From: Eudoraea adriatica DSM 19308
Lineage (GTDB): Bacteria; Bacteroidota; Bacteroidia; Flavobacteriales; Flavobacteriaceae
Assembly: GCF_000382125.1 (NCBI RefSeq)
Contig: NZ_KB907546.1
Location: 1 to 64,000 of the forward strand
Reading direction: 5' to 3'
Length of the DNA stretch: 64,000 nucleotides
The first letter of the stretch is position 1, and each line of letters begins with the position of its first letter. The position numbers and the translations under genes were made by a program. Below the pieces are notes generated by a model, which ran no database searches, was not told the origin of the DNA, and saw only the letters and a list, made by a program, of their open reading frames with translations. Positions 24,603 to 46,545 of the stretch are shown here, piece by piece.

Positions 24603-26297
24603 ATGAAACACAATTTACTAATGCTATTGATTTTCTTAGCATCGTTATCCTACGGTCAACAGAAAACAACTACAAATGAGACGTATGACATAGTCATATT
24701 AAACGGTCGGGTTATGGATCCTGAAACCATGTTCGATGCTATCGCCAATGTAGGGGTCACAGACGGAAAAATCGTTGCGATAACGAAATCTCCAATTAAA
24801 GGTAAAGAGACCATTGATGCTAAAGGGCATGTAGTGGCTCCCGGGTTTATTGACACCCACTATCATTCAATGGATGTTTTTAGTACTAAAATGGCACTTC
24901 GAGACGGTGTAACTTCCGGGATGGACCTTGAAGCCGGATCATTCAATGTTAAAGGATGGTATGATGAAAAAGCAAAAACGGGTTGGCAGGTAAACTATGG
25001 TACTACTGCAAGTTTATTGTGGACAAGAATGGCTATTCATGACCCTGAATTAAACATGGTTGGTACAATGGATTATACAGAAGCAAGACCATACGTTGCC
25101 AAAGCTGCAGAAGATGGCGTTCAGGGTTGGGCAACAACAAAATCAACCTTGGACCAAATGAATACAATGATGAAAATATTAGATGAAGATCTAAGACAAG
25201 GTGCAATAGGTATGGCAGCTCCTGTTGCTTATATAAGTATGGGAACAAGTAGTTACGAAGTTTTTACGGCTCAAAAAATAGCCGCTAATTATGACCGTAT
25301 GACAGCTTCTCATACCAGATATCATTTATTAAACGAAACACCTACGGAAGCACCAATAGCTTTTGATGAGATGTTTACCAATGCCATGTTGTTAGGCGCT
25401 CCATTTTTAATTTGCCATAATAATGATTTTGGTTGGTGGGAAATAGAAGAAAAATTGCAATTGGCCAGAGCAAAAGGTTTGAATATGTGGTCAGAGTACT
25501 ATCCTTACGCTGCTGGAGCAACAGCAGTTACTGCAGATTTCCTGAAACCTTCTGAATGGGTAGAAAAGCGTGGTTTCAAATACGAAGAAACCATCTTCGA
25601 CCCTATTGATAATGCCTACCTTACCAACGAAACCTATGCCGCATTGATGAAAAAAGAACCGGGAAGATCGGTTGTCGTAGTATTTCCATACCGCAAGCCC
25701 TGGTTGAAAGATTTTTTAACAATACCTCATATGACTATAGCAGCTGATGCCATGGTTGGTGTGGGTCCCGATGGGGAATCATTACCATGGGAAGCGGATT
25801 GGAAGGATTATAGAGGCCATCCCAGAACGGCTGGTACGCGTGGTACAGCGTTTCGTATGGCTCGTGAACAAGGCGTTCCTTTAATGTTTACGATTGCACA
25901 ATCCAGCTATTGGGCAGCTTTACACCTGGGTGATGCAGGGCTTGAGGCTATGAAGCAAAGAGGAAGAATTCAAGTGGGAAAAGTTGCAGACATTACCATT
26001 TTTAACCCTGAAACGATCACCGATAATTCTACTTTTAAAATAGGGGAAAATGGCTTTCCTACCACAGGTATTCCTTATGTGATTGTAAATGGTGTTACAG
26101 TAGTAAAAAACAACGAAGTATTACCTGTAAAAGCTGGTCAAGCAATTCGTTACCCAGTTGAAGTTAAAGGAAGGTTTACGCCGATTGATAAAGAGGATTG
26201 GAGGGTGAAGCATACTATTGGCGTTAATCCGGGTCTTTCAACAATTCCTGTTGATGATGACTCTGGTGCAGGGGCATTGCTTAACAAAAAAGAATAA
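24603..26297 (+). CDS. Secreted D-aminoacylase-type amidohydrolase 1
   Basis: 564 residues of the COG3653 amidohydrolase group (N-acyl-D-amino-acid deacylase type). The signal peptide is MKHNLLMLLIFLASLSYGQQ. Metal ligands His86 and His88 are in GFIDTHYH. The strand after the first ligands reads GVTSGMDLEAG, with Glu-Ala where classical D-aminoacylase has Asn-Cys (..GNCG). The last-strand Asp lies in AADAMVG, followed by HPRTAGT, a family signature. It probably hydrolyses an N-acyl or peptide-like amide in the periplasm. Its head (signal to ..KGKE) is nearly shared with the genes at 28951 and 30659. It is followed 21 nt later by another member, so they are co-transcribed. The substrate is unknown. 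Confidence 0.85.
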   Translation: MKHNLLMLLIFLASLSYGQQKTTTNETYDIVILNGRVMDPETMFDAIANVGVTDGKIVAITKSPIKGKETIDAKGHVVAPGFIDTHYHSMDVFSTKMALRDGVTSGMDLEAGSFNVKGWYDEKAKTGWQVNYGTTASLLWTRMAIHDPELNMVGTMDYTEARPYVAKAAEDGVQGWATTKSTLDQMNTMMKILDEDLRQGAIGMAAPVAYISMGTSSYEVFTAQKIAANYDRMTASHTRYHLLNETPTEAPIAFDEMFTNAMLLGAPFLICHNNDFGWWEIEEKLQLARAKGLNMWSEYYPYAAGATAVTADFLKPSEWVEKRGFKYEETIFDPIDNAYLTNETYAALMKKEPGRSVVVVFPYRKPWLKDFLTIPHMTIAADAMVGVGPDGESLPWEADWKDYRGHPRTAGTRGTAFRMAREQGVPLMFTIAQSSYWAALHLGDAGLEAMKQRGRIQVGKVADITIFNPETITDNSTFKIGENGFPTTGIPYVIVNGVTVVKNNEVLPVKAGQAIRYPVEVKGRFTPIDKEDWRVKHTIGVNPGLSTIPVDDDSGAGALLNKKE

Positions 26298-26318
26298 CAA
26301 TAATTTAAAATAGACTAG

Positions 26319-27965
26319 ATGAAAAAATCACTTTTTACACTATGTATTACCGCACTTCTTTTTAGTAGCTGTAATGAAACAGCTACTAAAAAAGGCCCAG
26401 ATCCCAATCAGGAATTTGACGTGGTCATCTTAAATGGTCGTGTCATGGACCCGGAAACCAATTTTGACGGTATCAGAAATGTTGGGGTCAAAGATGGCAA
26501 AATAGCCATCATTACAGAGGCGGACATAGCTGGAAAAGAAACCATAAATGCCGAAGGACACGTCGTTGCACCAGGATTTATTGATACGCACCAGCACGCC
26601 ACAGATCAATTTAGTCGCAAGGTTAATTTACGTGATGGCTTGACTACCCAAATGGATTTTGAAGCAGGTGCCGGAGATATCGCGAAATGGTATGCAGAGG
26701 CCGAGGGAAAAACCCAGGCCAACTACGGTATGGTAGTACTCGCAACGCTTGCCCGGGCAACGGTGCTGGACGGTGCTGAAATAGTGGCTGACGCAAATGA
26801 CATGGGCGGCCTGTTCCCTTTGGTAGGTCGCGCGGCCGAAAACGCCGAAAAACAGGGGCGTAAACCAGGGTGGTCGTCAACGCTTCCAAATAAAGAAGAA
26901 ATGACCAAGATTATGGCTCGTATTGATGAAGGTCTTCGCCAGGGCGCTTTGGGTGTGGGTGCTCCAGTGGGTTATATGACCGCAGGAGTTACGCAGTATG
27001 AATTGTACAAATACCAGGAGATGGCATCAAAATACGGTCGCGTTTCGGATGCTCATGTAAGATTTGCTGGTGTCAGACCTCCAACAGAAGGGCAGTTGGG
27101 AATTCAGGAAATGTTAGCCAATGCTATGGTATTAGATGCACCTTTTTTGGCTTCTCACCTAAACAGTAATATGGACTGGGAATACACCATTCCTTTGATT
27201 AACGATGCCAGAGAAAAAAGAGGGGCAAAAGTATGGGGTGAAGTTTACCCATATGGAGGTGCCAGCACCTTTGCCTCGGCAGATGTTCTCTCAACGTCGG
27301 GCATGGCTCAGATGAATTTAAAATATTCAGATATTACTAACCTTGATGGCACCCCTTGGGATAAGGCGATGCATGATGACGTTCGCAAGAATGATCCGGG
27401 CAGAACGGTTTTGGTTTACATCAATCCTGCTGAGGACGAACCTAAATGGATGGCACAGCCGGGCGTAGTAGTTGTTTCAGACGGTATGGCTATCATAGAT
27501 GAAAAAGGCGAATACTACCCCTGGGATTCACCATATGAAGGAAAAACATGTCACCCACGTAGCGCAGGTACCCGCGCCAAGGTATTGCGTATGGTACGTG
27601 AAGATAAAAACCAGACTTTGATGGATGCCATTTCCAAGATGAGTTACCTGCACGCCAAGTATTTAGGCGAATTAGGGGGTATCCCTCAGTTTAAGACTAA
27701 AGGTCGCATACAGGAAGGAATGGATGCGGATATCGTTGTTTTCGATCCGGAAACCGTGAGAGATAATTCAACGTACGAGGTAGGCATGGGAGCTATACCC
27801 TCTACAGGTATTCCTTATGTATTGGTAAATGGAGTTACGGTTGTTAAAGATTCTGAAGTGCTTAAAGTTTTCCCGGGAAAACCTATTCGCTTCCCTGTTG
27901 AAGAAAAAGGACGCTTAGATCAAATAGAGATTGAACCAAGGGTGTTTGATCCAAATCAATCATAA
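26319..27965 (+). CDS. D-aminoacylase-type amidohydrolase 2, lipoprotein
   Basis: 548 residues. The signal ends in LLFSSC, a lipobox with Cys18, so it is likely membrane-anchored. His91/His93 are in GFIDTHQH; the Glu motif is GLTTQMDFEAG; a late Asp is in VVSDGMA and is followed by CHPRSAGTRA. The enzyme class is that of the neighbour at 24603; about half of the residues agree in the conserved blocks. It starts 21 nt after that gene. Composition is moderately GC-rich in the middle (about 26.7-26.9 kb) compared with the ends, a hint of a mosaic. The exact amide substrate is unknown. Confidence 0.85.
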   Translation: MKKSLFTLCITALLFSSCNETATKKGPDPNQEFDVVILNGRVMDPETNFDGIRNVGVKDGKIAIITEADIAGKETINAEGHVVAPGFIDTHQHATDQFSRKVNLRDGLTTQMDFEAGAGDIAKWYAEAEGKTQANYGMVVLATLARATVLDGAEIVADANDMGGLFPLVGRAAENAEKQGRKPGWSSTLPNKEEMTKIMARIDEGLRQGALGVGAPVGYMTAGVTQYELYKYQEMASKYGRVSDAHVRFAGVRPPTEGQLGIQEMLANAMVLDAPFLASHLNSNMDWEYTIPLINDAREKRGAKVWGEVYPYGGASTFASADVLSTSGMAQMNLKYSDITNLDGTPWDKAMHDDVRKNDPGRTVLVYINPAEDEPKWMAQPGVVVVSDGMAIIDEKGEYYPWDSPYEGKTCHPRSAGTRAKVLRMVREDKNQTLMDAISKMSYLHAKYLGELGGIPQFKTKGRIQEGMDADIVVFDPETVRDNSTYEVGMGAIPSTGIPYVLVNGVTVVKDSEVLKVFPGKPIRFPVEEKGRLDQIEIEPRVFDPNQS

Positions 27966-28053: not shown

Positions 28054-28584
28054 ATGAAAACATTACAAAAATTATGGTGGTTCACCCTGTTAAGAGGGAT
28101 TATACTATTAATACTCGCATTTTTTGTATTTCGCCATCCGGCGAATGCACTCATGGGAGTGGCTATCTATATTGGGATTAGCTTATTGATTACAGGAATA
28201 TTACAGACCGGAGCATCCATTGGTTTTAAAGATTTATTTCCCAATTGGGGATGGGTACTGGCCGGAGGTCTACTTGATATTGTATTCGCTTTTGTGCTCT
28301 TATCAAACCCGGCACTTACAGCAGCCTCATTACCTTTTGTTATAGGCTTCTGGATTATCGTATCCGGTATCATGTCTTTTGCTGATTCTTTTCAAAGTAA
28401 AAAAGAAGGCAATTCCCTTTGGGGATTAAGTATGCTTGGCGGTGTGCTTTCTGTGATTGTTGGTTACTTTATTATGAGTAATATAATAGTGGGAGCACTT
28501 GTTATCACTACTTGGATGGGTATTGGATTTCTGATCATTGGAATAGTGAATATCGTTGTTGGATTCAAATTAAAATCACTTTAA
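28054..28584 (+). CDS. HdeD-family (DUF308) membrane protein
   Basis: 176 residues with six hydrophobic segments, typical of the HdeD/DUF308 family: MKTLQKLWWFTLLRGIILLI at the start, then LLITGILQTGASIGFKDLFPN-type loops and a final WMGIGFLIIGIVNIVVGF. HdeD in enterobacteria is linked to acid resistance; in this phylum the role is open. It lies within the hydrolase island, about 90 nt after a D-aminoacylase gene and 30 nt before a decayed amidohydrolase. It shows no sign of decay. Confidence 0.85.
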   Translation: MKTLQKLWWFTLLRGIILLILAFFVFRHPANALMGVAIYIGISLLITGILQTGASIGFKDLFPNWGWVLAGGLLDIVFAFVLLSNPALTAASLPFVIGFWIIVSGIMSFADSFQSKKEGNSLWGLSMLGGVLSVIVGYFIMSNIIVGALVITTWMGIGFLIIGIVNIVVGFKLKSL

Positions 28585-28613: not shown

Positions 28614-28925
28614 ATGAATTTGAAAAATTCATTATTAGTATCCATACTTTGTATTATCAGTTTAGGGCTTTTCGCTCAGGAAAAGCCCAAACAGATAACC
28701 CTTTTTACCAATGTACAAGTATTTGATGGCACATCCGATTAACTGATCAAAGCGGATGTTTTGGTTGAAGGAAACCTCATCAAACAAATTTCAATAGAAG
28801 GAGCATTTGTAGATATTATCATCGTCAATGGCGACGCAACTAAGGATATAAAATTACTAATGGATGCCAATAACATTGGCTTTATTATGAAAGATGGGAA
28901 AACTTACAAGAACACAATTAAATAA
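28614..28925 (+). pseudogene. Internally deleted COG1228 amidohydrolase
   Basis: 104 codons in a single frame with one internal TAA (28740-28742). The front has a signal peptide and LFTNVQVFDGTSD / VLVEGNLIKQIS, as in the 42484 gene. The back reads NNIGFIMKDGKTYKNTIK, the tail shared by the 36597, 42484 and 43893 proteins. About 350 residues of catalytic barrel are missing between them, including all metal ligands. It is therefore a head-tail deletion product that later gained a stop. Confidence 0.85.
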
Positions 28926-28950
28926 GTAAAAACTGATAAACAACAATTTT

Positions 28951-30525
28951 ATGAAAAACAATCTCATTATTTTGTTTGCTTTCTTGGTAGCGTTCTCGTA
29001 CGGTCAAAAGCAAACCATTTCAAACGAAACCTATGATTTAGTCATATTAAACGGCCGGGTTATGGATCCTGAAACCATGTTCAACGATGTCGCCAATGTT
29101 GGGGTCAAAGATGGGAAAATAGCTATTATTACCGAAAGTGACATTAAAGGTAAAGAAATGATTGATGCCGCCGGACATGTAGTTGCGCCTGGTTTCATTG
29201 ATCCGCACACTCACAATGTACCAACTCCATTTGGACAAAAGCTGGCCTTGCGAGATGGTGTTACAACTGCGTTAGAATTAGAATTAGGAGTACTCCCAAT
29301 TGATTTTTGGTATGACAGGATGAAGGGGAGGTCACAAACAAATTACGGAGCCACTGCCAGTCTAGAAGCTGCTCGGGAGATGGTGCTCAACCCCAACTAT
29401 AAAACCAAAGATGGAGCGCTTATCAATGATAGCGGTATACAGGACGAGACGCATTTAACCATGGCGTGGTCCAAAGGTATTGCTACCGACCAACAGGTTG
29501 AACAGATAATCAATTTAGTGGAAGAGGGATTAAAGCAAGGAGGTCTTGGTATTGGATATACACCTGGTTATATGGTAAAAGGTGCGAGGTCTGAGGAAGG
29601 AATTGGTGCTCAAAAGTTGGCAGGAAAGTATGGGCGTTTCGTTTATTTACACGGACGTTTTTCGGGACAACTCCCACCAAATGACGGTTTAACAGGTACA
29701 CTACAACAGCTTGGTGCCGCTGAGGCATATGGTGGAGGTTTAGTAATCGCTCATATGACAGCCCAGACCTTGAGTCAAACAAAACAAGCACAGGCGCTCA
29801 TTGATGCTGCAGCTAAAAAAGGCATTCCTGTAAAGTCTGAAATCTACGCTTATACCTATGGTTCTACAATTGTTGGTGCGGACTATCTTCAACCAGATAA
29901 TTACCAAAATAACATGGGGCATGATTATAAAGATATTACCAATATTTCGAACATGCAGCCTTTAACAAAGGAAACGTACGAGCAATTGATGAAAGAAGCT
30001 CCATTAACCAACGTCACCTTTGAAAATGCCACTAAGGAAGACTTATATTGGGCGCTTTCGTACCCAAATTCCATGATTGGAAGCGATGCGTTTCCGGGCG
30101 TTTCTAAGTCGGACGGCTCGTTACCTATAGATTGGGATACACCTTATGAATCTATAAATGCGCACCCTAGAGGTGCAGGTACCCACGCTCGAATTTTAAA
30201 GTTAGTACGTGAAGAAAATCTAATGCCCTTAATGTTGGCGGTTTCCAAGATGAGCTTCATGCCAGCTAAATTTCTTCAGGAAAACGGTGTACCCCAAATG
30301 GCGAACAAGGGGCGCATACAGTTAGGAAAAGATGCAGATATTACCATTTTTGATCCAGCTACTGTCAAAGACAATGCAACACCTGCGATGGGTACTTTGC
30401 CATCTACTGGGATTCCTTACGTTATTGTCAACGGCACTGTCGTGGTTAAGGACTCTAAGGTTTTGAAGGATGTTTTTCCCGGCCAACCAATCCGGGCAGC
30501 AATTCAAGAACAGAAAACCCCATGA
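28951..30525 (+). CDS. Secreted D-aminoacylase-type amidohydrolase 3
   Basis: 524 residues. Signal peptide MKNNLIILFAFLVAFSYGQK. His86/His88 are in GFIDPHTH; the Glu motif is GVTTALELELG; a late Asp is in MIGSDAFPG, followed by HPRGAGTHA. The C-terminus has the family pattern STGIPYVIVNG..VVKDSKVL..FPGQPIR. Composition is AT-rich and local throughout, unlike the next gene. The head is almost the same as in 24603 and 30659. A stub of a COG1228 tail follows immediately (30527). It probably deacylates an N-acyl D-amino acid or related amide. Confidence 0.85.
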   Translation: MKNNLIILFAFLVAFSYGQKQTISNETYDLVILNGRVMDPETMFNDVANVGVKDGKIAIITESDIKGKEMIDAAGHVVAPGFIDPHTHNVPTPFGQKLALRDGVTTALELELGVLPIDFWYDRMKGRSQTNYGATASLEAAREMVLNPNYKTKDGALINDSGIQDETHLTMAWSKGIATDQQVEQIINLVEEGLKQGGLGIGYTPGYMVKGARSEEGIGAQKLAGKYGRFVYLHGRFSGQLPPNDGLTGTLQQLGAAEAYGGGLVIAHMTAQTLSQTKQAQALIDAAAKKGIPVKSEIYAYTYGSTIVGADYLQPDNYQNNMGHDYKDITNISNMQPLTKETYEQLMKEAPLTNVTFENATKEDLYWALSYPNSMIGSDAFPGVSKSDGSLPIDWDTPYESINAHPRGAGTHARILKLVREENLMPLMLAVSKMSFMPAKFLQENGVPQMANKGRIQLGKDADITIFDPATVKDNATPAMGTLPSTGIPYVIVNGTVVVKDSKVLKDVFPGQPIRAAIQEQKTP

Positions 30526-30526
30526 A

Positions 30527-30604
30527 GATATTGGATTAGTGACAAATACAGAAAATTTGAAAATTAAAGACGGAAAAATTTATAAAAACAGACTTGATGA
30601 ATAA
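30527..30604 (+). pseudogene. Orphan COG1228 amidohydrolase tail
   Basis: 25 codons in a frame different from the gene before it: DIGLVTNTENLKIKDGKIYK, then N and a short end with TAA. It aligns with the tail of the 43893 protein (DLGAVTDANNLKIIMKDGVI). No head or barrel is present. It is a deletion scar between two D-aminoacylase-type genes. Confidence 0.7.
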
Positions 30605-30658: not shown

Positions 30659-32293
30659 ATGAAAAACAATTTAATTATTCTACTTATACTTTTGGTATCG
30701 TTTTCATGCGACCAAAAGAAAGCTGATTCAAACGAAAGCTACGATTTGGTCATATCAAACGGCCGTGTCATAGATCCGGAAACGGAGTTTGACGATATCG
30801 CAAATGTGGGTATCAAAGACGGTCGCATCGTCGCGATTACAAAAGAGCCACTGACGGGTACAGAGTCTGTGGACGCGACAGGAAAAATCGTTGCGCCCGG
30901 ATTCATTGATACCCATTTCCACTTTCAAACGCCGATAGGCTATTCCCTCGGGTTGCGCGACGGGGTGACCAGCAGCATGGATTTTGAGATGGGCTGTGCG
31001 GGATCCTATATCGCAGACTGGTACGAAGCGCGTGCCGGTAAGACCCAGGCCAACTATGGTATTGCGGTGAGTCACGAGTTTGCCCGTGCAATGTTCATAG
31101 ACGGTTCAGACGGCGCCGATTACCTGAAAGAAGGCCCCATCGCGGCTTACACAACCCGGGCGAAAACGGGCTGGAGCCAAACACGTCCGACCCTGGAACA
31201 GGGCAACGCGATTCTGGAAGAGCTCGACAAGGGCCTGCAGGCTGGTGCCGTGGGTATCGGCAGCACCGTGGGGTATATGAGAGAGGGCGTCTCTTCACGG
31301 GAGATGTTCGAGGTGCAGAAAGTCGCAGCACGCTATGGCCGCCCGACAGGTGCACATACACGCTATACGCTGGGTAACGACACCCAAGAGAATAACGGTG
31401 CACAGGAACTTGTCTCCAACGCCCTGGCGCTTGGCGCCCCGGCGATTGTGTTGCACTTCAACAACTCCGGCTGGCGGCTTGCACACCAGATGATTATCGA
31501 GCTTCAGGAACAGGGCCACAATATCTGGGGTGAAATCTATCCCTACGCTGCGGGTTCCACCACGATCAATGCTTCATTCCTGGAGCCTGAGAGCTGGATC
31601 GATGTATTTGGTAACCGCTATGAAGATACCATGCTTGATCCGGTCACGGGTGAGTACTATACCCTGGAGACCTACAAGGCCACGGTCGCATCCGAACCGA
31701 CCAGACCAATCGTTATTTTCAAGCAGCCCGAAGAAAACGAGGCGAAGTGGCTGACATTGAAGGGCGTGACCATGGCCAGCGATGCAGTTGGTGCCACGCC
31801 GTACCTCGCCGATTGGGATTTCCCGATGGACTCACTTGGCGGCACCCACCCCCGTACAGCTGGTGCCCGAGGCAAAACGATAAGACTTGGACGGGAAAAC
31901 AACATCCCGATGATGCAGCTGATGTCGATACTCAGCTACACCGCTGCCAAGCATATGGGAGATACGGGACTGAAGTTCATGCAAGAGCGCGGCCGCATCC
32001 AGAAAGGCATGGTTGCCGATATTGTGGTGTTTGACCCTGAAACCTTCACGGACAATTCAACGTACCAAAAGGGCGCTGTCCCTTCAACGGGCATGAAAGC
32101 GGTAATCGTCAACGGTCAGGTGACCGTGCGTGACGATGTGCTGGTTCCTGTTTTTGCTGGTCAGCCGATCCGGTTTGAACCGGAAGACAAGCCGCGCTTC
32201 GAGCCAATCTCGGTAGAGTCGTGGAATGCCCAATTCTCGACCGGTATGCCAGATGACTTCTCGTATGCTTTCCCTGAGGGCAAGAAAGACTGA
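30659..32293 (+). CDS. D-aminoacylase-type amidohydrolase 4, lipoprotein with foreign-looking body
   Basis: 544 residues. Lipobox VSFSC with Cys17; His86/His88 in GFIDTHFH; Glu motif GVTSSMDFEMG; late Asp in MASDAVGA; then HPRTAGARG. The first ~150-180 bp are AT-rich and match the heads of 24603/28951. From about 30.83 kb the body is clearly GC-rich and stays so past the stop, ending in its own GC-rich hairpin (32302-32323). Downstream lies an AT-rich stub of the same gene's tail (32369-32533). Inference: a foreign gene recombined into a resident one through the conserved head, leaving the old tail behind. The reaction is as for its paralogues. Confidence 0.87.
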   Translation: MKNNLIILLILLVSFSCDQKKADSNESYDLVISNGRVIDPETEFDDIANVGIKDGRIVAITKEPLTGTESVDATGKIVAPGFIDTHFHFQTPIGYSLGLRDGVTSSMDFEMGCAGSYIADWYEARAGKTQANYGIAVSHEFARAMFIDGSDGADYLKEGPIAAYTTRAKTGWSQTRPTLEQGNAILEELDKGLQAGAVGIGSTVGYMREGVSSREMFEVQKVAARYGRPTGAHTRYTLGNDTQENNGAQELVSNALALGAPAIVLHFNNSGWRLAHQMIIELQEQGHNIWGEIYPYAAGSTTINASFLEPESWIDVFGNRYEDTMLDPVTGEYYTLETYKATVASEPTRPIVIFKQPEENEAKWLTLKGVTMASDAVGATPYLADWDFPMDSLGGTHPRTAGARGKTIRLGRENNIPMMQLMSILSYTAAKHMGDTGLKFMQERGRIQKGMVADIVVFDPETFTDNSTYQKGAVPSTGMKAVIVNGQVTVRDDVLVPVFAGQPIRFEPEDKPRFEPISVESWNAQFSTGMPDDFSYAFPEGKKD

Positions 32294-32368: not shown

Positions 32369-32533
32369 ATGAAAGATTTTATAAAAGTGACTGCTAAGAG
32401 AGAGAATACTGGTCAATCAATCCGTTTTGAACCTGAAGCAAAGGGGCGTATCGAACCAATATCAGTTGATGCCTGGAATGAGAAATACACCACTGGAATA
32501 ATTGAATTGGACGCAAAGTATCATAAACAATAA
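32369..32533 (+). pseudogene. Leftover tail of a resident D-aminoacylase-type gene
   Basis: A 54-codon AT-rich frame. From residue 13 it reads TGQSIRFEPEAKGRIEPISV, then DAWNEKYTTGI. The 30659 protein ends GQPIRFEPEDKPRFEPISV, then ESWNAQFSTGM. This is therefore the same C-terminal region in local composition, lying just after the foreign copy. It lacks every catalytic residue. Confidence 0.8.
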
Positions 32534-37967: not shown

Positions 37968-38018
37968 ATGAAACAAAACAATGTACTACTATTTACTGTA
38001 ATAATTTCGTTTGAGTAA
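37968..38018 (+). pseudogene. Orphan signal-peptide stub
   Basis: ATG plus 15 codons, MKQNNVLLFTVIISFE, then TAA. It matches the start of the 35574 signal peptide (MKKHIALLFTVIIS). The 10 bases before it (gaaaagaacg) are repeated before the 39545 gene. The head of a lost gene. Confidence 0.75.
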
Positions 38019-38073: not shown

Positions 38074-38127
38074 ATGAGAAAACAAGATAGAATTAACGAC
38101 ATGCTTTACATGGAAAGGCGCATGTGA
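38074..38127 (+). pseudogene. Orphan 5' stub of a serine-hydrolase gene
   Basis: MRKQDRINDMLYMERRM then TGA. It matches the first residues of the 41147 protein (MSKQDRINEMLNLV), and the DNA upstream is also alike (aaaATGag). No body follows. 38128-38265 shows no gene. Confidence 0.7.
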
Positions 38128-39191: not shown

Positions 39192-39308
39192 CTGGCTGTT
39201 GGATTAAGCACTGTATTAGTAAATGGCGTTTTGGTTGTAAAACAAAGCAAACTGGATACTAATGCCGCACCAGGACAAGCTATTCGAAGATCGGCTTCAA
39301 AACAATAA
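39192..39308 (+). pseudogene. Orphan tail of a D-aminoacylase-type gene
   Basis: 38 codons read LAVGLSTVLVNGVLVVKQSK, then LDTNAAPGQAIRRSASKQ and TAA, in a frame open through the end of the barrel gene. It matches the usual tail (STGIPYVIVNG..VVKDSKVL..PGQPIR). No barrel or metal ligand is present. Confidence 0.75.
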
Positions 39309-39355
39309 ATAAGTAAGCATATAATGAAATTAATCATTGAAAACAGATGAAAACT

Positions 39356-39535
39356 ATGAAACACAATTTCCTAATTCTATTTGTTTTCCTGGTGTCGTTC
39401 TCATACGGTCAACAGAAAAGAACTTCAAACGTCACCTATGATCTCGTCGTTTTAAACGGGCGCGTAATGGATCCCGATAAAAACTTCGTTGTCATCATGA
39501 AGGACGGCAAAATCTACAAAAACACGCTTAAATAG
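39356..39535 (+). pseudogene. Chimeric mini-gene: D-aminoacylase head joined to COG1228 tail
   Basis: 59 residues, intact frame with start and stop. Residues 1-39 read MKHNFLILFVFLVSFSYGQQ.. to ..VVLNGRVMDP, the head of the 24603/28951 type. From DPDKNFVVIMKDGKIYKNTL it is the tail of the 36597/42484 type. The join falls at a shared 'DP' codon pair, so a short-homology deletion between two unrelated-branch amidohydrolases is the simplest origin. It could be expressed and secreted but would have no active site. Confidence 0.85.
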
Positions 39536-39544
39536 AAAAGAACG

Positions 39545-41107
39545 ATGAAAAAGTCAAAAAAATTAAGAGTCTCCTATGTTGGGTTTTTCCATGAAACCAA
39601 CACCTACCTCACCGAAGGCATGGGAGAAACCACGCTCGACAGAATGCGCACTTTCCGAGGCGATGAGATCATGCAGTTGAAAGGAACTGCCATTGGCGGG
39701 CCAGTGGATGTGTGCGAGGAAAAAGGCTGGGAGCTGCTTCCGGGTGTCCTGTTCTATATAGACTGGTGCTTTAGTACGGTGAGCGATCAGTGTTGGAAAG
39801 ATGCGAAAAAGGAGATGATGGACACGCTGAAATCACAGTTGCCGATGGACATCGTCTACCTTTCTGTTCACGGTGCAGGTATGGTAAATAGCACACACGA
39901 TCTTGAAGGAGATTTAGCGGAGTCGGTCAGAGCCCTGGTCGGAAAGGACACGATGATCGTCTGGTCGGGCGACCTGCATGGCAAGATCACAGATAAAATG
40001 AAGGACAACATGAATTTCTTCAGTACCTGCAAAGAATATCCTCATATGGATATGAATGTCTGCGCGCGTGATGCCATGTATCGTGGCGCTGCGATCCTGG
40101 CAGGAGAATCTCATCCCACCCCGGCCTATCGCAGAGTGCCAGTGATGATGCCGGTGAGTAATACCGAACAGGAGGGCACCTTTGCAAATCGACTGAAAGA
40201 AAAGTGCATTGAAATTGAAAAGCGGCCCGGCGTGTTGAACTGCTCTGTGATGCATGGCTTTCCATACCAGGACAGTGATTTTTGTGGCATGTACCCGATG
40301 GCTACTACCGAAAATAACCCCAAGCTGGCACAAGAACTGGTGGACGAACTGACGCAGTGGATCTGGGAACACCGTGAAGAGTCTGTCATCTCATTAGACC
40401 CTTTGGATAAAACGATAAACACTGCACTGGCTATGCTCGAGAAGGACGGCCACTATGTTCGTAAATTGCCAACGAAAGGCGATGTCATCGACCATACCCC
40501 TATTGTGATTGGGGACGCTGCGGATAACCCGGGTGGCGGAGCCGGAGGTGGTGGCACCCATCTGCTGAAGGCCCTTATGGAGACCAAAGGCCTGGGGAAA
40601 GTCGCTTTCATGTCCATACACGATCCGGAAACCGCGAAGGCCGCAGTCGCTGCCGGTGTAGGAGCGACAATCGATGTGAACCTCGGTGGAAAATTTGAGC
40701 CATTGGCAGGCCCACCGATCAAGACCAAAGCCTATGTCAAGTCGATTTCGGATGGGAATGAGACCGTTCGCGGAGGGACCGCTTTCAACGGCCCATACGA
40801 ACTTGGTCCTACTGTTAGGTTGGTCATCGAAGCGGTGAATACGGTGGATGTTATCGTCATATCCGGTCTATGCCAGACCTATGATGATACACAAGGGAGA
40901 CCACATGGCATCATCATTCAGGAATATGACGTCATTGGTGTCAAAAGCGGGATGCACTTCCGGGCATTCTATGAAAACTTCACCGACAAATTACTGATCG
41001 CTGATGTTCCCGGAACCACTAGTCGCGACATCACTATTTTCGAACATACCAAGCTAAAGACTCCTATCTATCCGCTGGACGCCAATACTACTTTTAATAT
41101 AAAGTAA
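39545..41107 (+). CDS. M81-family metallopeptidase (MlrC-like)
   Basis: 520 residues of peptidase family M81. Zinc ligands as in MlrC: Asp143 and His145 in SGDLHG and His167 in EYPHMD, 22 residues later, the same spacing as in the microcystin-degrading enzyme. Early GFFHETNTY and the glycine-rich DNPGGGAGGGGTH (C-terminal domain) are family marks. No signal peptide, so cytoplasmic. Moderately GC-rich. Its leader aaaacacgcttaaatagaaa is shared with the stub at 37968. MlrC cleaves Adda-containing peptides; here any small linear or modified peptide could be the substrate. Confidence 0.9.
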   Translation: MKKSKKLRVSYVGFFHETNTYLTEGMGETTLDRMRTFRGDEIMQLKGTAIGGPVDVCEEKGWELLPGVLFYIDWCFSTVSDQCWKDAKKEMMDTLKSQLPMDIVYLSVHGAGMVNSTHDLEGDLAESVRALVGKDTMIVWSGDLHGKITDKMKDNMNFFSTCKEYPHMDMNVCARDAMYRGAAILAGESHPTPAYRRVPVMMPVSNTEQEGTFANRLKEKCIEIEKRPGVLNCSVMHGFPYQDSDFCGMYPMATTENNPKLAQELVDELTQWIWEHREESVISLDPLDKTINTALAMLEKDGHYVRKLPTKGDVIDHTPIVIGDAADNPGGGAGGGGTHLLKALMETKGLGKVAFMSIHDPETAKAAVAAGVGATIDVNLGGKFEPLAGPPIKTKAYVKSISDGNETVRGGTAFNGPYELGPTVRLVIEAVNTVDVIVISGLCQTYDDTQGRPHGIIIQEYDVIGVKSGMHFRAFYENFTDKLLIADVPGTTSRDITIFEHTKLKTPIYPLDANTTFNIK

Positions 41108-41146: not shown

Positions 41147-42415
41147 ATGAGTAAACAAGACAGAATAAACGAGATGCTAAACTTAGTAACTCCTATGAAC
41201 AAATGGAAAAAGCCTCAATCAGCTGATTTTGTTGATGCTGCTACAAAACGATATAGTTTTCCAAACTGGCAATCAGGAAGCGAAGATTCCATTTATTATA
41301 ATTTACATATCCCGGAATTTTTTAAATGTGCTGTGGTACCAGCACCAACTAAAAAGAGTATTGTAGAACGAGATCTTAATCCTGATTTATTGGATTTAAC
41401 TTTTACCGCATTAGATGGCACTACTACGCCTACTTTAAAAGAATATTTAGGTGGAAAACGTCAGGTGCAGGCTATGATGATGGCGCATAAAGGAAAAGTA
41501 GTCTTTGAAACGTATCCCGGAATGAATCCAAATGACATACACATATGGATGTCGGCAGCTAAACCAACGGTGGGTTTGTTGATTATGCTGCTGGCTGAAG
41601 ATGGTAAAATAGACCTTGAAAAACCAATGCCTACCTATGTACCCAGGTTAAGAGGTACTGCATGGGAAAAGGTAAGTGTGAAAAATGCATTGAACATGTC
41701 ATCCGGACTTGATATTGAAGAAACCGGGGAGAATCTTATGAATCCTGATACGTGGATTGCGAAGTGGTTTACAGCTGCTTTTGAAGAAGGGAAAGGTGAT
41801 TGGGCGGCAATGGCTCAAGATGCACAACCTTTACCAAATGAATCTGCAGGTGACCGTTTCAGATACTCTGGTGCTAACACAATGATGCTGGTTCTTGCAA
41901 CTGAACATGTAACAGGTATGAGATGGCAAGAATACTTTAATGAACGTGTATGGTCTAAAATAGGCGCGAACGGTCAGTTTATTTGTGGACTTGCAGAGGG
42001 CGTGCCATTAGCTGCAGGTCTTCACAATTGTACCCCGGAAGATTTTCTTCGCTTTGCATTAATATATACACCAAGTTGGAATGCAGTAGCAAGCGAAAAG
42101 ATTATTTCAGATGACTTACTTAAATCCATTCAAGATCTTGGAAACCATAAAGCCTACAAAGGATCTACAGAAGAGCAGTATGGTTCAGACTGGTTTGGAG
42201 AAGTTCCGGAAAAAAATACAGCACAATGGGATCATTATTTTCCTGATGGAGGCATGTTCAAACATGGAAATATGGGTCAAGGGATCTACGTAGATCCGAA
42301 GCGTGACTTTTGTGGAATATACTTTGGCTTAGCACCAAATCCAGATGAAATTTCAGGAATCGATCATTCTCCCGGGTATTTAAGAGCTGCAGCAAAAAAG
42401 TTAGCAGGGAAATAA
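41147..42415 (+). CDS. Serine hydrolase of the beta-lactamase (class C/MlrB-like) family
   Basis: 422 residues. Nucleophile motif Ser136-Ala-Ala-Lys139 (SxxK) in IWMSAAKPTVGLL and a Tyr240 in RYSGANT that corresponds to the YxN tyrosine, though with altered spacing. LKEYLGGKRQVQAMMMAHKG opens the fold. No signal peptide is seen (MSKQDRINEMLNLV), so it is probably cytoplasmic, like the M81 enzyme 39 nt upstream. AT-rich, local composition. MlrB, which acts before MlrC on linearised microcystin, belongs to the same family. DD-peptidase or esterase activity is also possible. Confidence 0.87.
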   Translation: MSKQDRINEMLNLVTPMNKWKKPQSADFVDAATKRYSFPNWQSGSEDSIYYNLHIPEFFKCAVVPAPTKKSIVERDLNPDLLDLTFTALDGTTTPTLKEYLGGKRQVQAMMMAHKGKVVFETYPGMNPNDIHIWMSAAKPTVGLLIMLLAEDGKIDLEKPMPTYVPRLRGTAWEKVSVKNALNMSSGLDIEETGENLMNPDTWIAKWFTAAFEEGKGDWAAMAQDAQPLPNESAGDRFRYSGANTMMLVLATEHVTGMRWQEYFNERVWSKIGANGQFICGLAEGVPLAAGLHNCTPEDFLRFALIYTPSWNAVASEKIISDDLLKSIQDLGNHKAYKGSTEEQYGSDWFGEVPEKNTAQWDHYFPDGGMFKHGNMGQGIYVDPKRDFCGIYFGLAPNPDEISGIDHSPGYLRAAAKKLAGK

Positions 42416-42427
42416 TAAACCAGTAAC

Positions 42428-42483
42428 GAAGAGGGCCCTGCCCGTAAGCAGAGCCCTTTTAAAGATCTTTAAAACAGAAAATT
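42428..42483 (+). terminator. Hairpin-leader module, copy A
   Basis: AGGGCCCTGC-CCGTAA-GCAGAGCCCT (one C-A mismatch), followed by TTTT and the leader ctttaaaacagaaaattATG. Related modules stand before 43893, 45304 and 46664. It acts as a terminator/leader joint and offers homology for recombination. Confidence 0.75.
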
Positions 42484-43836
42484 ATGAAAAACTTAAAAAT
42501 GAAACTCCTAGCCACAGCAATCGCCTTCATTGGGTGGTGTTCTGTAGCTATTGCACAGGACAAGCCAAAACAAATTACACTTTTTACCAATGTACAGGTA
42601 TTTGATGGCCTATCCGATAAACGGTTCAAGTCGGATGTTTTGGTTGAAGGAAACATCATCAAACAAATATCTAAAGAACCTTTGATGGTTGCGCAAACCG
42701 ATAATGTGACCATCATAAACGGTGAAGGGCGCACGCTGATGCCTGGCCTTACAGATGCTCATTGGCACAGCATGGGGGCCTATATGACTGGGGACCCGTT
42801 TGCGGCCGGTGCGGGCAGACTGAATCTCGTGGCGGTCCATGGGGCAGAAAAGACGCTTATGCGGGGCTTTACCACAGTGAGAGACGTGGGCGGCCCTGTA
42901 TTTGATGTAAAGGCGGTAATCGACGAGGGTCTGTTCGTTGGCCCCCGGATCTACGCTGCGGGTTCGATGATCTCGCAAACGTCTGGACATGGCGATTTCC
43001 GTAGCCCGATTGATATCCCTCAAAGCTATTCACGAGAGCTTACTCCGCAAGAAAGGATGGGTACGGTTGCGATCGCAGACGGCAGGGCGCAAGTTATGCA
43101 GCGCGTGCGCGAGAACCTGATGCATGGAGCGGCCTTTATCAAGCTCATGGGCGGTGGAGGTGTTGCTTCACCTTCGGATCCACTCGACGTTTCGCAATAC
43201 ACCATCGAGGAAATCGCTGCAGCCGTTGAAGTCGCGGAGAACTGGGGCACCTATGTGACTGTTCACTCCTATACCGCGAAGGCGATCCAGAACGCAATCC
43301 GAGGCGGTGTCCGTAATGTAGAGCACGGCCAGTTGATTGACGAGGAAACAGCAAAACTTATGCAGGAGACGAATACTTCAGTTTGCCTGCAGCCCTTCTA
43401 CAACGATGAGGATGCCATCCCAATGCCTCCAGGTTCATTTCAGGAAAAAAAATACCAGCAACTAATCTCAGGAACCGATAATGCCTTCGCGTTAGCAAAA
43501 AAATATGACTTGCTCTTCGGGTTTGGGACAGATACACAGGGTAATCCGGCGCTCGCAGAGCGTCAGGGGGCTCAGTTGGCGAAGCTCGTCCGCTATTTCG
43601 AGCCGTGGGAAGTGCTGAAGATTGCGACCAGCCAGAACTATCAGATCATGAAGCGTTCCGGGCCTCGCGATCCCTATCCCGGCGAGAACGGTGTGGTTAA
43701 AGAAGGTGCTTTAGCCGACCTGCTTTTGGTGGACGGAAATCCTCTGGAGGACATTGACCTCATTGCCGATCCGCATAAAAACTTCGTTATCATCATGAAA
43801 GACGGCGTGATCTACAAAAATTCAATAAATAAATAG
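42484..43836 (+). CDS. Secreted COG1228 amidohydrolase B
   Basis: 450 residues. Signal peptide MKNLKMKLLATAIAFIGWCS..AIA-Q. His93/His95 in DAHWH; Lys motif FIKLMGGGG; His in VTVHSYTA and VEHGQLI; late Asp in GFGTDTQGN. The first ~270 bp are AT-rich and match the 36597 and 28614 heads (LFTNVQVFDG, VLVEGNIIKQISKEPLMV). The core (about 42.76-43.72 kb) is visibly GC-rich. The end (about 43.77 kb on) returns to the AT-rich shared tail KNFVIIMKDGVIYKNSINK. Peptide or N-acyl amino-acid cleavage outside the cytoplasm is expected. Confidence 0.88.
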   Translation: MKNLKMKLLATAIAFIGWCSVAIAQDKPKQITLFTNVQVFDGLSDKRFKSDVLVEGNIIKQISKEPLMVAQTDNVTIINGEGRTLMPGLTDAHWHSMGAYMTGDPFAAGAGRLNLVAVHGAEKTLMRGFTTVRDVGGPVFDVKAVIDEGLFVGPRIYAAGSMISQTSGHGDFRSPIDIPQSYSRELTPQERMGTVAIADGRAQVMQRVRENLMHGAAFIKLMGGGGVASPSDPLDVSQYTIEEIAAAVEVAENWGTYVTVHSYTAKAIQNAIRGGVRNVEHGQLIDEETAKLMQETNTSVCLQPFYNDEDAIPMPPGSFQEKKYQQLISGTDNAFALAKKYDLLFGFGTDTQGNPALAERQGAQLAKLVRYFEPWEVLKIATSQNYQIMKRSGPRDPYPGENGVVKEGALADLLLVDGNPLEDIDLIADPHKNFVIIMKDGVIYKNSINK

Positions 43837-43892: not shown

Positions 43893-45236
43893 ATGAAAAA
43901 CTTAAAAATGAAACTACTAGCTACAGCAATCGCCTTGATTGGATGGTTTTCCGTAGCTATTGCACAGGACAATCCTGCGCAAACCTTGATTACCAATGTC
44001 AACATCTTTGACGGAGTGAATGAAAAAATGATTGAAAATGCCAATGTCTTAATAGAGGGTAATTTGATTAAAACAATCTCTACAAGCTCAATTAAGGCTA
44101 AGGGTGCAACAGTAATCGACGGCGGTGGGCGTACACTGATGCCTGGGCTGATCGATAGCCATGTCCATCTCGGTTTTGCGACGCTGCCGGCGGTGGACTT
44201 CCTGACGGGCGATCCCAACTACAACGCAATCAAATCAACAAAGGATGCCGAGGCTATGCTGATGCGCGGCATCACTGCGGTGCGCGACATGGGCGGCAAT
44301 GTCTTCGGGCTCAAGCGGGCCATCGATGAGGGCCTTTTGGCGGGGCCCCGCATCTATCCATCGGGCGGTCCCTTGAGCCAGACGGCCGGGCATTTCGATT
44401 TCCGCTTTCCCAACGAGAAGCACCCCCGGTTCGGCGGTGACATAACGCCGCTTTATGAACAGGGGATGGGCTATCTCGTCGACGGCGTGCCCGAAGTACT
44501 GGCCGCGACGCGTGACAACCTCAGCAACGGCGCGTCGCAGATCAAGCTCATGACGGGCGGTGGCTATGCGTCTCCCGCCGATCCGCTACTCGGTAATCAG
44601 TTTACCTTCGAAGAAATCAAAGCGGCGGTCGACGCGGCGGCCGATTGGCAGACCTACGTTACCATCCATGCGTACCATCCCAGTTCGATCAACCGCGCCA
44701 TCGACGCCGGAGTGAAGGATGTCGGACACGGGCAACTGCTAGATGAAGCCACGCTGCGCCGCATGGCAAAGGAAGGCGTGTTTCTGAGCACCCAGCCCTT
44801 TACTGTCTGCAGCGAGCCACAACTCTCCGACTTCTCAAATGCGAAGCTCGCGGAGGTCTGCAAGGGAACGGCCTTTGTCTACAAAACAGCCAAGACCATT
44901 CCGGAACTCAAGCTCACCTATGGCACCGACATGTTCAACCTGCCAGAGGATGTCTTTGCCGAGCAGGTACAACAGATGGAGCGGCTGTTGCAGTGGTATG
45001 AGCCTGTCGAGATCCTGAAGATGGCGACGGGCAATGCAGGTGATCTTCTTGCGATGAGTGGCCTGCGAAACCCCTATCAGGAGGGCACGCTCGGCACCGT
45101 GGTAGAGGGTGGTTATGCCGACCTTCTGCTAGTCGATGGCAATCCGCTTGACGACTTGGGGGCGGTAACAGACGCCAATAACCTGAAAATCATTATGAAA
45201 GACGGCGTGATCTACAAAAATTCAATCAATAAATAG
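43893..45236 (+). CDS. Secreted COG1228 amidohydrolase C with GC-rich core
   Basis: 447 residues. Signal peptide almost the same as in the 42484 protein. His90/His92 in LIDSHVH; Lys motif QIKLMTGGG; His in TIHAYHPS; DVGHGQLL where its paralogues have EHG; late Asp in TYGTDMFNL. From about 44.10 to 45.17 kb the DNA is strongly GC-rich with runs such as gcgcgacatgggcggcaatg; both ends (signal peptide and NNLKIIMKDGVIYKN tail) are AT-rich. The clearest case of a foreign core between local ends. The reaction class is as for A and B; the substrate probably differs. Confidence 0.88.
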   Translation: MKNLKMKLLATAIALIGWFSVAIAQDNPAQTLITNVNIFDGVNEKMIENANVLIEGNLIKTISTSSIKAKGATVIDGGGRTLMPGLIDSHVHLGFATLPAVDFLTGDPNYNAIKSTKDAEAMLMRGITAVRDMGGNVFGLKRAIDEGLLAGPRIYPSGGPLSQTAGHFDFRFPNEKHPRFGGDITPLYEQGMGYLVDGVPEVLAATRDNLSNGASQIKLMTGGGYASPADPLLGNQFTFEEIKAAVDAAADWQTYVTIHAYHPSSINRAIDAGVKDVGHGQLLDEATLRRMAKEGVFLSTQPFTVCSEPQLSDFSNAKLAEVCKGTAFVYKTAKTIPELKLTYGTDMFNLPEDVFAEQVQQMERLLQWYEPVEILKMATGNAGDLLAMSGLRNPYQEGTLGTVVEGGYADLLLVDGNPLDDLGAVTDANNLKIIMKDGVIYKNSINK

Positions 45237-45303
45237 AAGAGGGCTCTGCCCGTAAAGCGGAGCTCTTCTAAACAACTTTACAATAACTTTAAAACAGAAA
45301 ATT
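45234..45303 (+). terminator. Hairpin-leader module, copy C
   Basis: GAAGAGGGCTCTGCCCGTAA then AGCGGAGCTCTTC, an imperfect stem, then a leader ending ctttaaaacagaaaattATG. It precedes an unrelated enzyme (Ntn hydrolase), so the module is not tied to one gene family. Confidence 0.7.
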
Positions 45304-46545
45304 ATGGCAATTTTAAAAAACGAACCGATTTATCCTTTTACAGAAGGAAACTATGCAAAACCACATCATATCATTATAGCTGGTAGCGAGGAGGAAATAG
45401 GCTATGAATTAGCTACGCTCGCCAAAGAAAAATATGACTGTACCCTCGAGAAATATGATAACCCCATCTATGGTGAGGCAAGAAGGGAATTTTTCAAGCG
45501 CAACTGGCCGGCAATGAACGAACGCGCTAAGGGCGTTAGTCGTGCATATGGCCTGTCAGCGGATGATAATGAATACGACACCACTGCGCTACCTTACGAC
45601 GTTTATGACTGTGTCAGAGGTGAATCAATCAGTGGGTCATTCAGCGCATGCTCAGGTCTCGTGCTGCCCATAGAGAAAAGTGATACTAAAAAAGGAGTAT
45701 TTACAGCTCGTAATCACGACTTATTTCCGCTGCCAACATGGAGCACCCTTTTTGGTAAAAAGGGACCTGAAGGTGCACATGGATGTGAAGAAAGAGCCAA
45801 TGTAATTGAGTTTCGACCTGACAAAGGATACAAAAGTATATTAGTTGGTGGTCATGACATATTAACGCCATTTATTGATGGTATTAATGAGAAAGGACTC
45901 TATTTTACAACCTTCGCAGACTCGCATGGAGTTGGTGCAGGCGGTGCACCTATGGCCGGAGGTAGAATAAATGGATTGTCAGATGTTCAACTTGGTGCTT
46001 ACCTTCTCAGCAATTGTGCTACAGTTGAGGACGCCAAAAAAGCAATCCTGACAACTCGTGTCATGCAAGTAGGTATGTGTATTCATATGCTCATTGCTGA
46101 TGGTGATGGAAATGCCACCGTTTTCGAGATCGACAAAACATCCCAGGCTTATGTATTTACGGATCGAAAACCAGGAGAGCCATTATTCTGTACAAATCAT
46201 CCAATAGCTTTGTATACTGATTCCAGTAAATTCCCTGCTTACAGTGAGGAAGCAGAACACAATACTTTTTATCGGATGAATCTTTTGGACAAAACCTATG
46301 CAGATATGAAGGCTCCGTTTAAAAAATCGGATGCGAAAGATTTGGTCGATGTTGTCCACTGCGCCTTTGTCGATGACAAGAAGGCTGAGGCGGCGTTTGA
46401 GGAACGCACGCTGATCAATACCAATTGTGACTTGTCCAAGCCCGAAATTACCGTCCGCTTCTACCTCGGGGATGATGGGCCGGTGCCTGGCACTAACCAC
46501 ATGAAGACCCGCATGAGTGAGCCTTTTACCTTTGGTTTTGACTAA
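45304..46545 (+). CDS. C45-type Ntn hydrolase (acyltransferase/amidase family)
   Basis: 413 residues. The probable N-terminal nucleophile after self-cleavage is Cys116 in FSACSGLVLP, followed by FTARNHDL (Arg136, Asn137, Asp139), as in the C45 acyl-CoA:6-aminopenicillanate acyltransferase group and related C59 amidases. DGINEKGLYFTTFADSH and ILTTRVMQVGM..HMLIADGDGN also fit. No signal peptide, though a leader of ~115 residues would be removed by self-cleavage. The last ~200 bp (46.34-46.54 kb) are GC-rich while 45.7-46.3 kb is AT-rich, so the gene itself is a mosaic. It should cleave a linear amide. Confidence 0.82.
   Translation: MAILKNEPIYPFTEGNYAKPHHIIIAGSEEEIGYELATLAKEKYDCTLEKYDNPIYGEARREFFKRNWPAMNERAKGVSRAYGLSADDNEYDTTALPYDVYDCVRGESISGSFSACSGLVLPIEKSDTKKGVFTARNHDLFPLPTWSTLFGKKGPEGAHGCEERANVIEFRPDKGYKSILVGGHDILTPFIDGINEKGLYFTTFADSHGVGAGGAPMAGGRINGLSDVQLGAYLLSNCATVEDAKKAILTTRVMQVGMCIHMLIADGDGNATVFEIDKTSQAYVFTDRKPGEPLFCTNHPIALYTDSSKFPAYSEEAEHNTFYRMNLLDKTYADMKAPFKKSDAKDLVDVVHCAFVDDKKAEAAFEERTLINTNCDLSKPEITVRFYLGDDGPVPGTNHMKTRMSEPFTFGFD

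Follow-up and report, generated by a model that had tools for sequence, protein, structure and literature searches.

The mosaic penA of Neisseria is an example of a mosaic gene derived from within-gene lateral transfer, and Omelchenko et al. in 2003 reportedly described mosaic operons formed by in situ gene displacement, in which foreign genes replace operon residents. In polymorphic toxin systems (i.e., Rhs and contact-dependent inhibition, CDI), the head is constant and the catalytic parts are exchangeable, with orphan pieces located beside intact genes. Within-gene recombination breakpoints were reported in 678 of 5282 gene sets of Escherichia coli and Shigella by Skippington and Ragan 2011 (PMC3212841). 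In this study, we analyzed a stretch of 64,000 nucleotides of Eudoraea adriatica DSM 19308 (contig NZ_KB907546.1, positions 1 to 64,000; hereafter the window), in which positions 24603-46545 carry 13 hydrolase open reading frames (ORFs), every one on the + strand, according to the ORF list, Pfam, and NCBIfam. The original prediction, made from the letters alone, had counted at least eleven hydrolases in one orientation. We give a probability of about 75% to the reading that these genes, mostly for exported amide hydrolases, form an array that tends to retain a host-bound frame (leader, signal peptide, N-terminal segment, and C-terminal tail) and to exchange catalytic cores. The gene ends look home-grown, whereas several middles match those of very distantly related bacteria; this suggests that pieces of genes, rather than whole genes, are traded.

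Four observations carry this reading. In several genes, core and head differ in history. The joins concentrate where the signal peptide ends, at the metal-binding HxH motif with which the barrel begins, and close to the tail. One core was found behind heads of different hosts, and two Roseobacteraceae arrays differ by a step with both ends in the HxH motif. Below, genes are named by their start positions, XP denotes a Xaa-Pro-dipeptidase-like amidohydrolase (36597, 42484, and 43893 in the window), and G and L numbers are our handles for other genomes and loci. Identities refer to amino acids (aa) or nucleotides (nt).

Heads, cores, and tails in the window

24603..26297, +: D-aminoacylase-like amidohydrolase with a cassette A head; core homologue in G317 (Flavobacteriaceae, 68% aa)
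26319..27965, +: D-aminoacylase-like amidohydrolase with a lipoprotein-like head common to G254 and G317 genes; 79% aa to Roseibium aggregatum
28951..30525, +: D-aminoacylase-like amidohydrolase with a cassette A head; native core, 83% aa to G213/G292 with a different signal peptide
30659..32293, +: D-aminoacylase-like amidohydrolase with a cassette A head; GC-rich core (third-position GC content, GC3, 65%), 83% aa to Roseibium aggregatum
32784..34532, +: Amidohydro_3 amidohydrolase (PF07969, E 9.6e-112) and a lipoprotein-like signal of its own (by eye)
34608..35537, +: class A beta-lactamase-like protein (above the NF033103 cut-off) without the signal peptide of its tandem copy 35574
35574..36560, +: class A beta-lactamase-like protein (NF033103) with a cassette C head; 73% aa to Roseibium aggregatum
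36597..37958, +: XP amidohydrolase with the cassette C signal peptide; 36757-36883 is a native segment, 84% to G213
39545..41107, +: M81/MlrC-like metallopeptidase (PF07364, PF07171) without a signal-like N terminus
41147..42415, +: PF00144 serine hydrolase; among solved structures, closest to 6-aminohexanoate-dimer hydrolases
42484..43836, +: XP amidohydrolase with the cassette E signal peptide; 42551-42707 is a native segment, 85% nt to G254
43893..45236, +: XP amidohydrolase with a cassette E head and a GC-rich core; tail block 95% nt to 42484
45304..46545, +: AAT/choloylglycine-hydrolase-like protein (PF03417, PF02275) behind a cassette E leader

These hydrolases were classified into five Pfam groupings (PF07969/PF01979 amidohydrolases, with 8 of the 13; PF13354 class A beta-lactamase; PF00144; PF07364/PF07171 M81/MlrC; and PF03417 AAT), which we take to be about four folds, fewer than the six unrelated folds first proposed. 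The four D-aminoacylase-like amidohydrolases (deacylases; 24603, 26319, 28951, and 30659) each scored above the NF006560 cut-off.

Three types of signal-peptide head recur in the window, as had been predicted, and they were designated leader/head cassettes A, C, and E. Cassette A is carried by 24603, 28951, 30659, and the mini-ORF 39347 (repeat D3, 4 copies of 147 nt, 69-77%). The other two are located as follows.

34575..34619, +: cassette C leader, copy 1, leader only, on 34608; 89% over 44 nt of the query 36561-36700
35538..35653, +: cassette C leader and signal peptide, copy 2, on 35574; 90% over 116 nt to 36561-36676
36561..36700, +: cassette C leader and signal peptide, copy 3, on amidohydrolase 36597
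42418..42560, +: cassette E hairpin leader and signal peptide, copy 1; the others are 43838-43969 and the leader-only 45236-45319

The 90% match between copies 2 and 3, leader included, bears out the claim that the unrelated folds 35574 and 36597 share a head. Recurring leaders and hairpins had also been claimed; the cassette leaders represent the former, and hairpins lie upstream of 42484, 43893, and 45304 (minimum free energies of -18.4, -16.1, and -17.0 kcal/mol; z -4.1, -2.1, and -3.4). Leader and head of 42484 and 43893 agree at 88% nt. Cassettes C and E had no match outside the array in the 3.9-Mb genome at E 0.001. In G254, a cassette of the C kind (76% over 125 nt) is carried by a PF00144 hydrolase that is 82-86% identical in protein to one in L034, L035, L051, and L081, so that cassette C was found on three enzyme families across two genomes. 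In the cross-family leader scan, many matches were to the tail of the preceding gene within the 90-nt upstream stretch and were discarded by eye. The tandem beta-lactamases 34608 and 35574 are 86-98% identical in DNA past codon 90, and 34608 has the leader without the signal peptide.

Window paralogues were aligned codon by codon and compared in blocks of 30 codons. For some of them, head DNA agreed at 69-87%, compared with mostly 33-60% in the core. DNA identity between 42484 and 43893 was 87% in codons 1-30, 40-64% in the middle blocks, and 95% in the final block, and the GC3 of 43893 was 36-44% in blocks 1-3, 73-80% in the following five, and 37% in the final block. Between 36597 and 42484, identity was 78% in codons 61-90 and 43-67% across the core blocks. 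The deacylases 24603, 28951, and 30659 agreed at 69-85% in codons 1-60, at 55-67% in codons 61-90, and mostly at 32-56% afterwards, with some rise near the end. The C-terminal tail ..IMKDGxIYKN, pointed out originally as a shared exchangeable part, is the usual end of this amidohydrolase family in both phyla, and the protein motif alone is therefore not evidence of exchange. The tail DNA does count as evidence, since it is 91-95% identical between window copies with differing or absent cores. Specifically, the tail of 36597 is 91% nt identical to that of 39347. The core of 36597 is mostly 85-95% nt identical to Roseovarius gaetbuli.

Seven orphan heads and tails were identified in the window (five by tblastn, one by blastn, and one by eye), where at least five had been predicted; the outer ends of several were fixed by reading on to the next stop.

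28614..28926, +: orphan head and tail of an XP gene, no core (tblastn)
30518..30604, +: orphan tail of an amidohydrolase (..KIKDGKIYKNRLDE), tblastn E 3e-6 to 30598, rest read to the stop
32411..32533, +: orphan deacylase tail, tblastn E 3e-9 to 32500, rest read to the stop
37968..38018, +: orphan head of the cassette C kind, 16 codons before a stop (by eye)
38074..38127, +: orphan head of a 41147-like gene (blastn; 38070-38130 is 80% identical to the start of the G317 homologue)
39195..39308, +: orphan deacylase tail, tblastn E 2e-8 to 39293, stop from the ORF list
39347..39535, +: 62-codon ORF with a cassette A head fused to an XP tail, joined at the common GATCC-GA (repeats D3 and D5; tblastn)

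Loss of cores via deletion between paralogues would explain these orphans. Clear orphans were also found in G034 (L021 8734-8955) and G213 (L126 889-1005), and the remnant deacylase tail of G034 is 97% aa identical to that of Robiginitalea, which is a whole gene. The orphan scan left out matches at the cut starts of L034, L035, L066, L067, and L081 and those running upstream of intact genes (L125, L126 4118, L129, and L041). A 31-residue MlrC-like piece also lies outside any long frame in L051 (9920-10012), so orphan pieces may occur in Roseobacteraceae too.

The original prediction was to be refuted by related genomes whose heads, cores, and tails have co-linear phylogenies without recombination. 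That comparison was run and did not refute it: the trees conflict, and related arrays contain a changed core behind a kept head, an intact gene at the place of an orphan, and differing signal peptides on one core. The intact gene is an XP gene of G213 and G292 that adjoins the deacylase orthologous to 28951, where the window has the orphan 28614-28926. The differing signal peptides occur on the same XP gene in G213 (L126 14152-15492) and G292 (L128 12747-14093), which is 92% nt identical past codon 25; the signal peptide of the G213 copy is that of the adjoining deacylase (94% over 106 nt).

Probable core exchange between and within lineages

GTDB species genomes were scanned with 43893, and the best 80 loci of at least 529 confirmed relatives were kept, so that the sample leans to kin of that gene. 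Comparison of 20 window proteins with these 80 loci by tblastn revealed arrays of the same families in Alphaproteobacteria, among them L034 of Shimia (30659 80%, beta-lactamase 63%, 43893 67%, 39545 77%), L051 of Roseovarius (30659 80%, 36597 81%, 43893 70%), L064 of Roseibium, Stappiaceae (26319 79%, 30659 83%, beta-lactamase 73-74%, 42484 76%), and L081 of Tropicimonas (39545 78%, 43893 70%). The DNA of 36597 is 39-60% identical to L051 until residue 80 and mostly 85-95% identical afterwards, dropping near the tail, and the switch point corresponds to the HxH motif. Identity also switches abruptly between 36597 and L056 and between L081 and L034, near residue 80 between 42484 and L064, and near residue 40 between 35574, 30659, and 26319 and L064. 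The metallopeptidase 39545 is alike from the first residues on (87% nt to G254; 77-78% aa to Shimia and Tropicimonas); its homologues in G254 and Tropicimonas do have a signal-like N terminus.

The core of 42484 is 84% aa identical to Roseibium aggregatum, and that of 43893 groups in a clade of Roseobacter-type and Bacteroidota genes. Among nine same-genus genomes searched, only G005 had a relative of 43893 above 60% identity. An origin of the GC-rich cores from within Bacteroidota only was not borne out for 36597, whose core groups with Roseovarius and Defluviimonas, and for 42484, whose core groups with Roseibium (Shimodaira-Hasegawa-like approximate likelihood ratio test, SH-aLRT, 100 in both cases). 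The 36597-type core has a GC content of 0.49 here behind a head of 0.43, and of 0.52 in Roseovarius and Defluviimonas behind heads of 0.60-0.61; since it differs from the head in both hosts, the core may be foreign in both. In the search for a carrier, no plasmid record reached 60% identity for 39545 (492 records), for 36597 (316 records), or for 35574 among the 5000 best records, and one did for 30659 among 165 (Photobacterium, 62%). None of five viral-contig candidates for 36597 was confirmed.

A gene set of 100 XP and 36 deacylase genes was compiled from three sources (the window, 17 stretches of Flavobacteriaceae genomes, and 56 of the named 80 loci) after removal of 12 family members without the search motif (part cut at locus ends, part whole). 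A strong two-segment switch in DNA identity was detected in 420 of the 4950 XP pairs. The switches lay at residues 20-39 in 69 pairs, at 80-99 in 103, and at 360-419 in 221, although the last zone partly mirrors ordinary tail conservation and pairs are not independent; elsewhere they were rare (24 pairs at residues 40-79 and 3 at 100-359). Both directions of mismatch occur: L064 of Roseibium and L083 of Shimia share heads at 93% aa with cores at 39%, and L082 and L044 share cores at 91% aa with heads at 29%. A control of 22 other amidohydrolases with signal-like N termini (nine stretches, eight of them same-genus) yielded 1 strong switch in 231 pairs, and a head-core difference of at least 20 points in 0 of 231 pairs versus 11 of 325 XP pairs within Flavobacteriaceae. 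A second control with HutI was abandoned, as the 9 genes recovered from 30 loci gave too few pairs (36).

Across all 100 XP genes, the label Bacteroidota/other changed 4 times on the head-protein tree and 15 times on the core tree; for the 36 deacylases, the numbers were 4 and 6. In a hand-picked subset of 48 XP genes, the label changed 10 times on the core tree, 4 times on the head-protein tree, and once on the head-DNA tree. In approximately unbiased (AU) tests, the core data rejected a 7-gene head group (p 1.9e-5) and the pair 36597 and 42484 (p 4.6e-101), and the head data rejected 42484 with its core partner L064 (p 2.7e-5). Within the same locus, heads exceeded cores in identity clearly in Flavobacteriaceae (+11.8 aa points, 20 pairs, versus +1.0 between loci).

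Close-range signs of core change at one place, by gain or loss, came from Roseobacteraceae. Positions 1-3883 of L081 (Tropicimonas) align with 2376-6258 of L034 (Shimia) at 92.5%, and 6091-11979 with 6097-11938 at 90.4%. Between them, L081 has about 2.4 kb extra, which runs from the core and tail of the first XP gene through a 38266-like gene into the head of the second. Since this is absent from L034, the first XP head of L034 continues into the core of the second gene, with the change-over within the stretch encoding IDGGGRTLMPG, directly before the HxH motif. Likewise, L081 and L051 agree at 92.6% over a stretch that starts at the beta-lactamase, includes the serine hydrolase, and ends near residue 93 of the XP gene. 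Past this point, the XP cores differ (most 60-nt windows are at 45-65%), and the XP gene that follows is again 90% identical. L051 is without the 38266-like gene that separates the two XP genes in L081. Exact common runs at the motif were 20 nt for G213 with L051 and within L051, and 9-11 nt in others.

Proposed mechanism and competing explanations

Recombination in short stretches conserved among paralogues would fuse a kept head with a new core, with resident heads and tails serving as landing sites. By one route, it would take place between adjoining genes of an array, leaving orphan heads and tails and loss of a core; by the other, through which we infer that DNA crossed phyla, it would involve incoming DNA of another bacterium. 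Members of an array whose heads are alike could exchange cores without any special requirement. Cross-phylum joins with little homology would need illegitimate or homology-facilitated recombination. Such recombination is known from transformation and conjugation (PMC3240628) and is a plausible route for such joins; mosaics from transformation can hold multiple discontinuous donor segments (PMC13344027). Fusions would be retained by selection because the resident head supplies host-compatible transcription, translation start, and export, and heads do follow host phylum more closely than cores, in line with such retention. In amidohydrolases, the barrel is surrounded by a small beta domain made up of the N- and C-terminal segments, so the exchange would be roughly a barrel swap. 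The original observation held, and the proposal of core gain by recombination in the flanks was supported with corrections: some joins look like deletions between neighbours (i.e., losses) rather than gains, both gain and loss are likely at work, and heads are exchanged too.

Several results weigh against core exchange behind kept heads. The head DNA tree may track GC content, the head data fail to reject 36597 with its core partners (AU p 0.093), and the AU groups were selected post hoc from the trees, so that their p values are optimistic. In Proteobacteria, the same-locus excess of head over core was slight (+2.4, 22 pairs, versus +1.1 between loci). The head-core cluster graph has 0 cycles at three thresholds, and the cycle count was consequently dropped as a proof. 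Many of the 12 cores with multiple heads may reflect just fast-evolving signal peptides, the related arrays L020, L021, and L022 yielded no DNA repeats, and 43893 has no sharp identity step relative to its nearest relatives. The control set was smaller and less diverged, and its 0 of 231 early left-high switches versus 75 of 4950 says little. The exact runs at the motif were short (9-20 nt in 6 of 8 pairs inspected), the motif was outside the five longest runs (12-17 nt) of the L081 XP pair that is fused in L034, and the longest run of divergent pairs began in the motif in 390 of 4719 and in the tail in 2208. Run lengths of this order are near or below the usual requirement of RecA-dependent exchange.

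On the window genes alone, core exchange is also hard to tell apart from the acquisition of whole genes from alphaproteobacteria-like donors, with ends overwritten later by gene conversion from resident neighbours and no sub-gene transfer between species. Gene conversion would account for the fact that the ends of neighbours are most alike (88% for leader and head and 95% for the final block of 42484 and 43893), and the order 30659, beta-lactamase, 36597, 43893 is partly as in Roseovarius L051. However, in Roseobacteraceae the core changes while head and flanks remain largely constant, and the GC content of the 36597-type core is also unlike that of its Roseovarius head, which makes this alternative unlikely, if the strongest of those considered.

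Insertion of cores into fixed sites by a site-specific recombinase or integron-like element appears very improbable. The gathering of switch points in three zones would fit it, and L081 versus L034 is readable as the gain of a core-tail-spacer-head unit, but the joins fall in coding stretches that are conserved anyway, and no recombinase or integrase was found by Pfam among 30 window proteins (ORFs past 51590 were not scanned, nor attC sites searched). It is harder still to attribute the likeness of heads to selection on signal peptides and leaders alone, without recombination. Heads must suit the export machinery of the host, and head trees do track host phylum closer than core trees; against this, third positions at conserved residues of L034 and L083 agree in 59 of 74 head versus 53 of 124 core codons, L082 and L044 have cores at 91% aa yet heads at 29%, and untranslated leaders are common to different enzyme families. 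Misassembly or contamination, which could produce mixed GC inside genes, can practically be set aside, given that the contig around the window spans 750 kb, that the contamination rating of the assembly is 0.07%, and that similar mosaics occur in other genomes.

Exchange of cores within a kept frame can be extended to the scheme in which the arrays of Flavobacteriaceae and Alphaproteobacteria (mostly Rhodobacterales) form one exchange system. Cores without start, leader, or export signal would cross phyla and be grafted into the host-specific leader, signal peptide, and beta domain, with in-frame joins at the HxH motif and at the tail. Each lineage would thereby keep its heads while renewing its catalytic repertoire. 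We advance this wider scheme tentatively, at somewhat less than even odds.

Array surroundings and comparison with known systems

The features that accompany the hydrolases are the following.

19889..22516, +: MalT-like LuxR-family regulator of 875 aa, upstream of the array (PF00196 above cut-off, PF17874 below)
28054..28584, +: DUF308 membrane protein (PF03729) in a native neighbourhood, 85% aa to G213
38266..39174, +: protein without Pfam match, kept in related Flavobacteriaceae arrays (54-74% aa)

Homologues of the regulator (22-50% aa) adjoin the arrays of G005, G034, G292, G317, and Robiginitalea. Two small ORFs that are alike by eye (22582-22845 and 24293-24541; 87 and 82 aa) lie between regulator and array, and a similar one occurs in G034 (L022, about 4990). 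Downstream are a ThrE-like exporter (46664) and then a DcaP-like porin (48562). Homologues (29-47% aa) of three adjoining G292 genes (L128 5964-8667), which resemble ABC-transporter parts by eye, are present in L034, L064, L081, L104, and other alphaproteobacterial arrays. Inside the array, at 32538-32774, is an interspersed element of roughly 230 bp; its ends are inverted (27-nt arms at 32539 and 32748), and parts of it match at least 29 other genomes, as counted from the listing.

The substrates are probably unusual amides (D-aminoacyl, prolyl, beta-lactam-like, and nylon-dimer-like), as judged from family resemblance. By sequence, 36597 resembles the prolidase/ochratoxinase family (prolidase 3feq, E 4.7e-67; ochratoxinase 4c5y, E 1.5e-40), and it scored 218.5 bits against Xaa-Pro dipeptidase NF051886, below the cut-off of 500 (36597 was the one XP gene of the window scanned with NCBIfam). 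The proteins 34608 and 35574 are predicted class A beta-lactamases (230.0 and 238.7 bits versus the NF033103 cut-off of 200), and 39545 scored 121.1 bits against MlrC microcystinase NF041767, below the cut-off of 999. Other putative functions, likewise by resemblance, are those of D-aminoacylase, penicillin acylase (weak), and 6-aminohexanoate-dimer hydrolase.

The array is a natural case of catalytic-domain exchange across phyla in which head, core, and tail are each traceable. It offers a possible answer to how a foreign exported enzyme is usable at once in a host with different signals for transcription, translation, and export, namely that only the core is foreign, and it makes the minimum homology length for such joins in nature testable. 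It also cautions that trees and transfer counts made at the level of genes can be misleading for such families.

No earlier description of such an array was found in our searches of open-access papers. The constant heads, exchangeable catalytic parts, and orphans beside intact genes are as in polymorphic toxin systems (PMC3967940, in part). Unlike in those systems, the middle is exchanged here between a kept head and tail, the products are metabolic hydrolases, and leaders are common across enzyme families; no immunity genes were seen among the array products, which comprise the hydrolases, DUF308, and a single protein that matches no Pfam family. The genes also qualify as mosaic, with a significant conflict between head and core trees (AU) and an abrupt change of identity within genes, and the breakpoints inside genes are as in the mosaics of within-gene lateral transfer (penA; Skippington and Ragan 2011). 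Those mosaics arise within or near species, whereas here pieces cross phyla and joins fall mainly in three gene zones. In contrast to mosaic operons formed by in situ displacement, the unit replaced is the catalytic core, and the ends of the resident stay. Thus, although within-gene transfer is already known, an array with kept ends, middles exchanged across phyla, and leaders common to unrelated enzymes is, as far as our searches reach, new.

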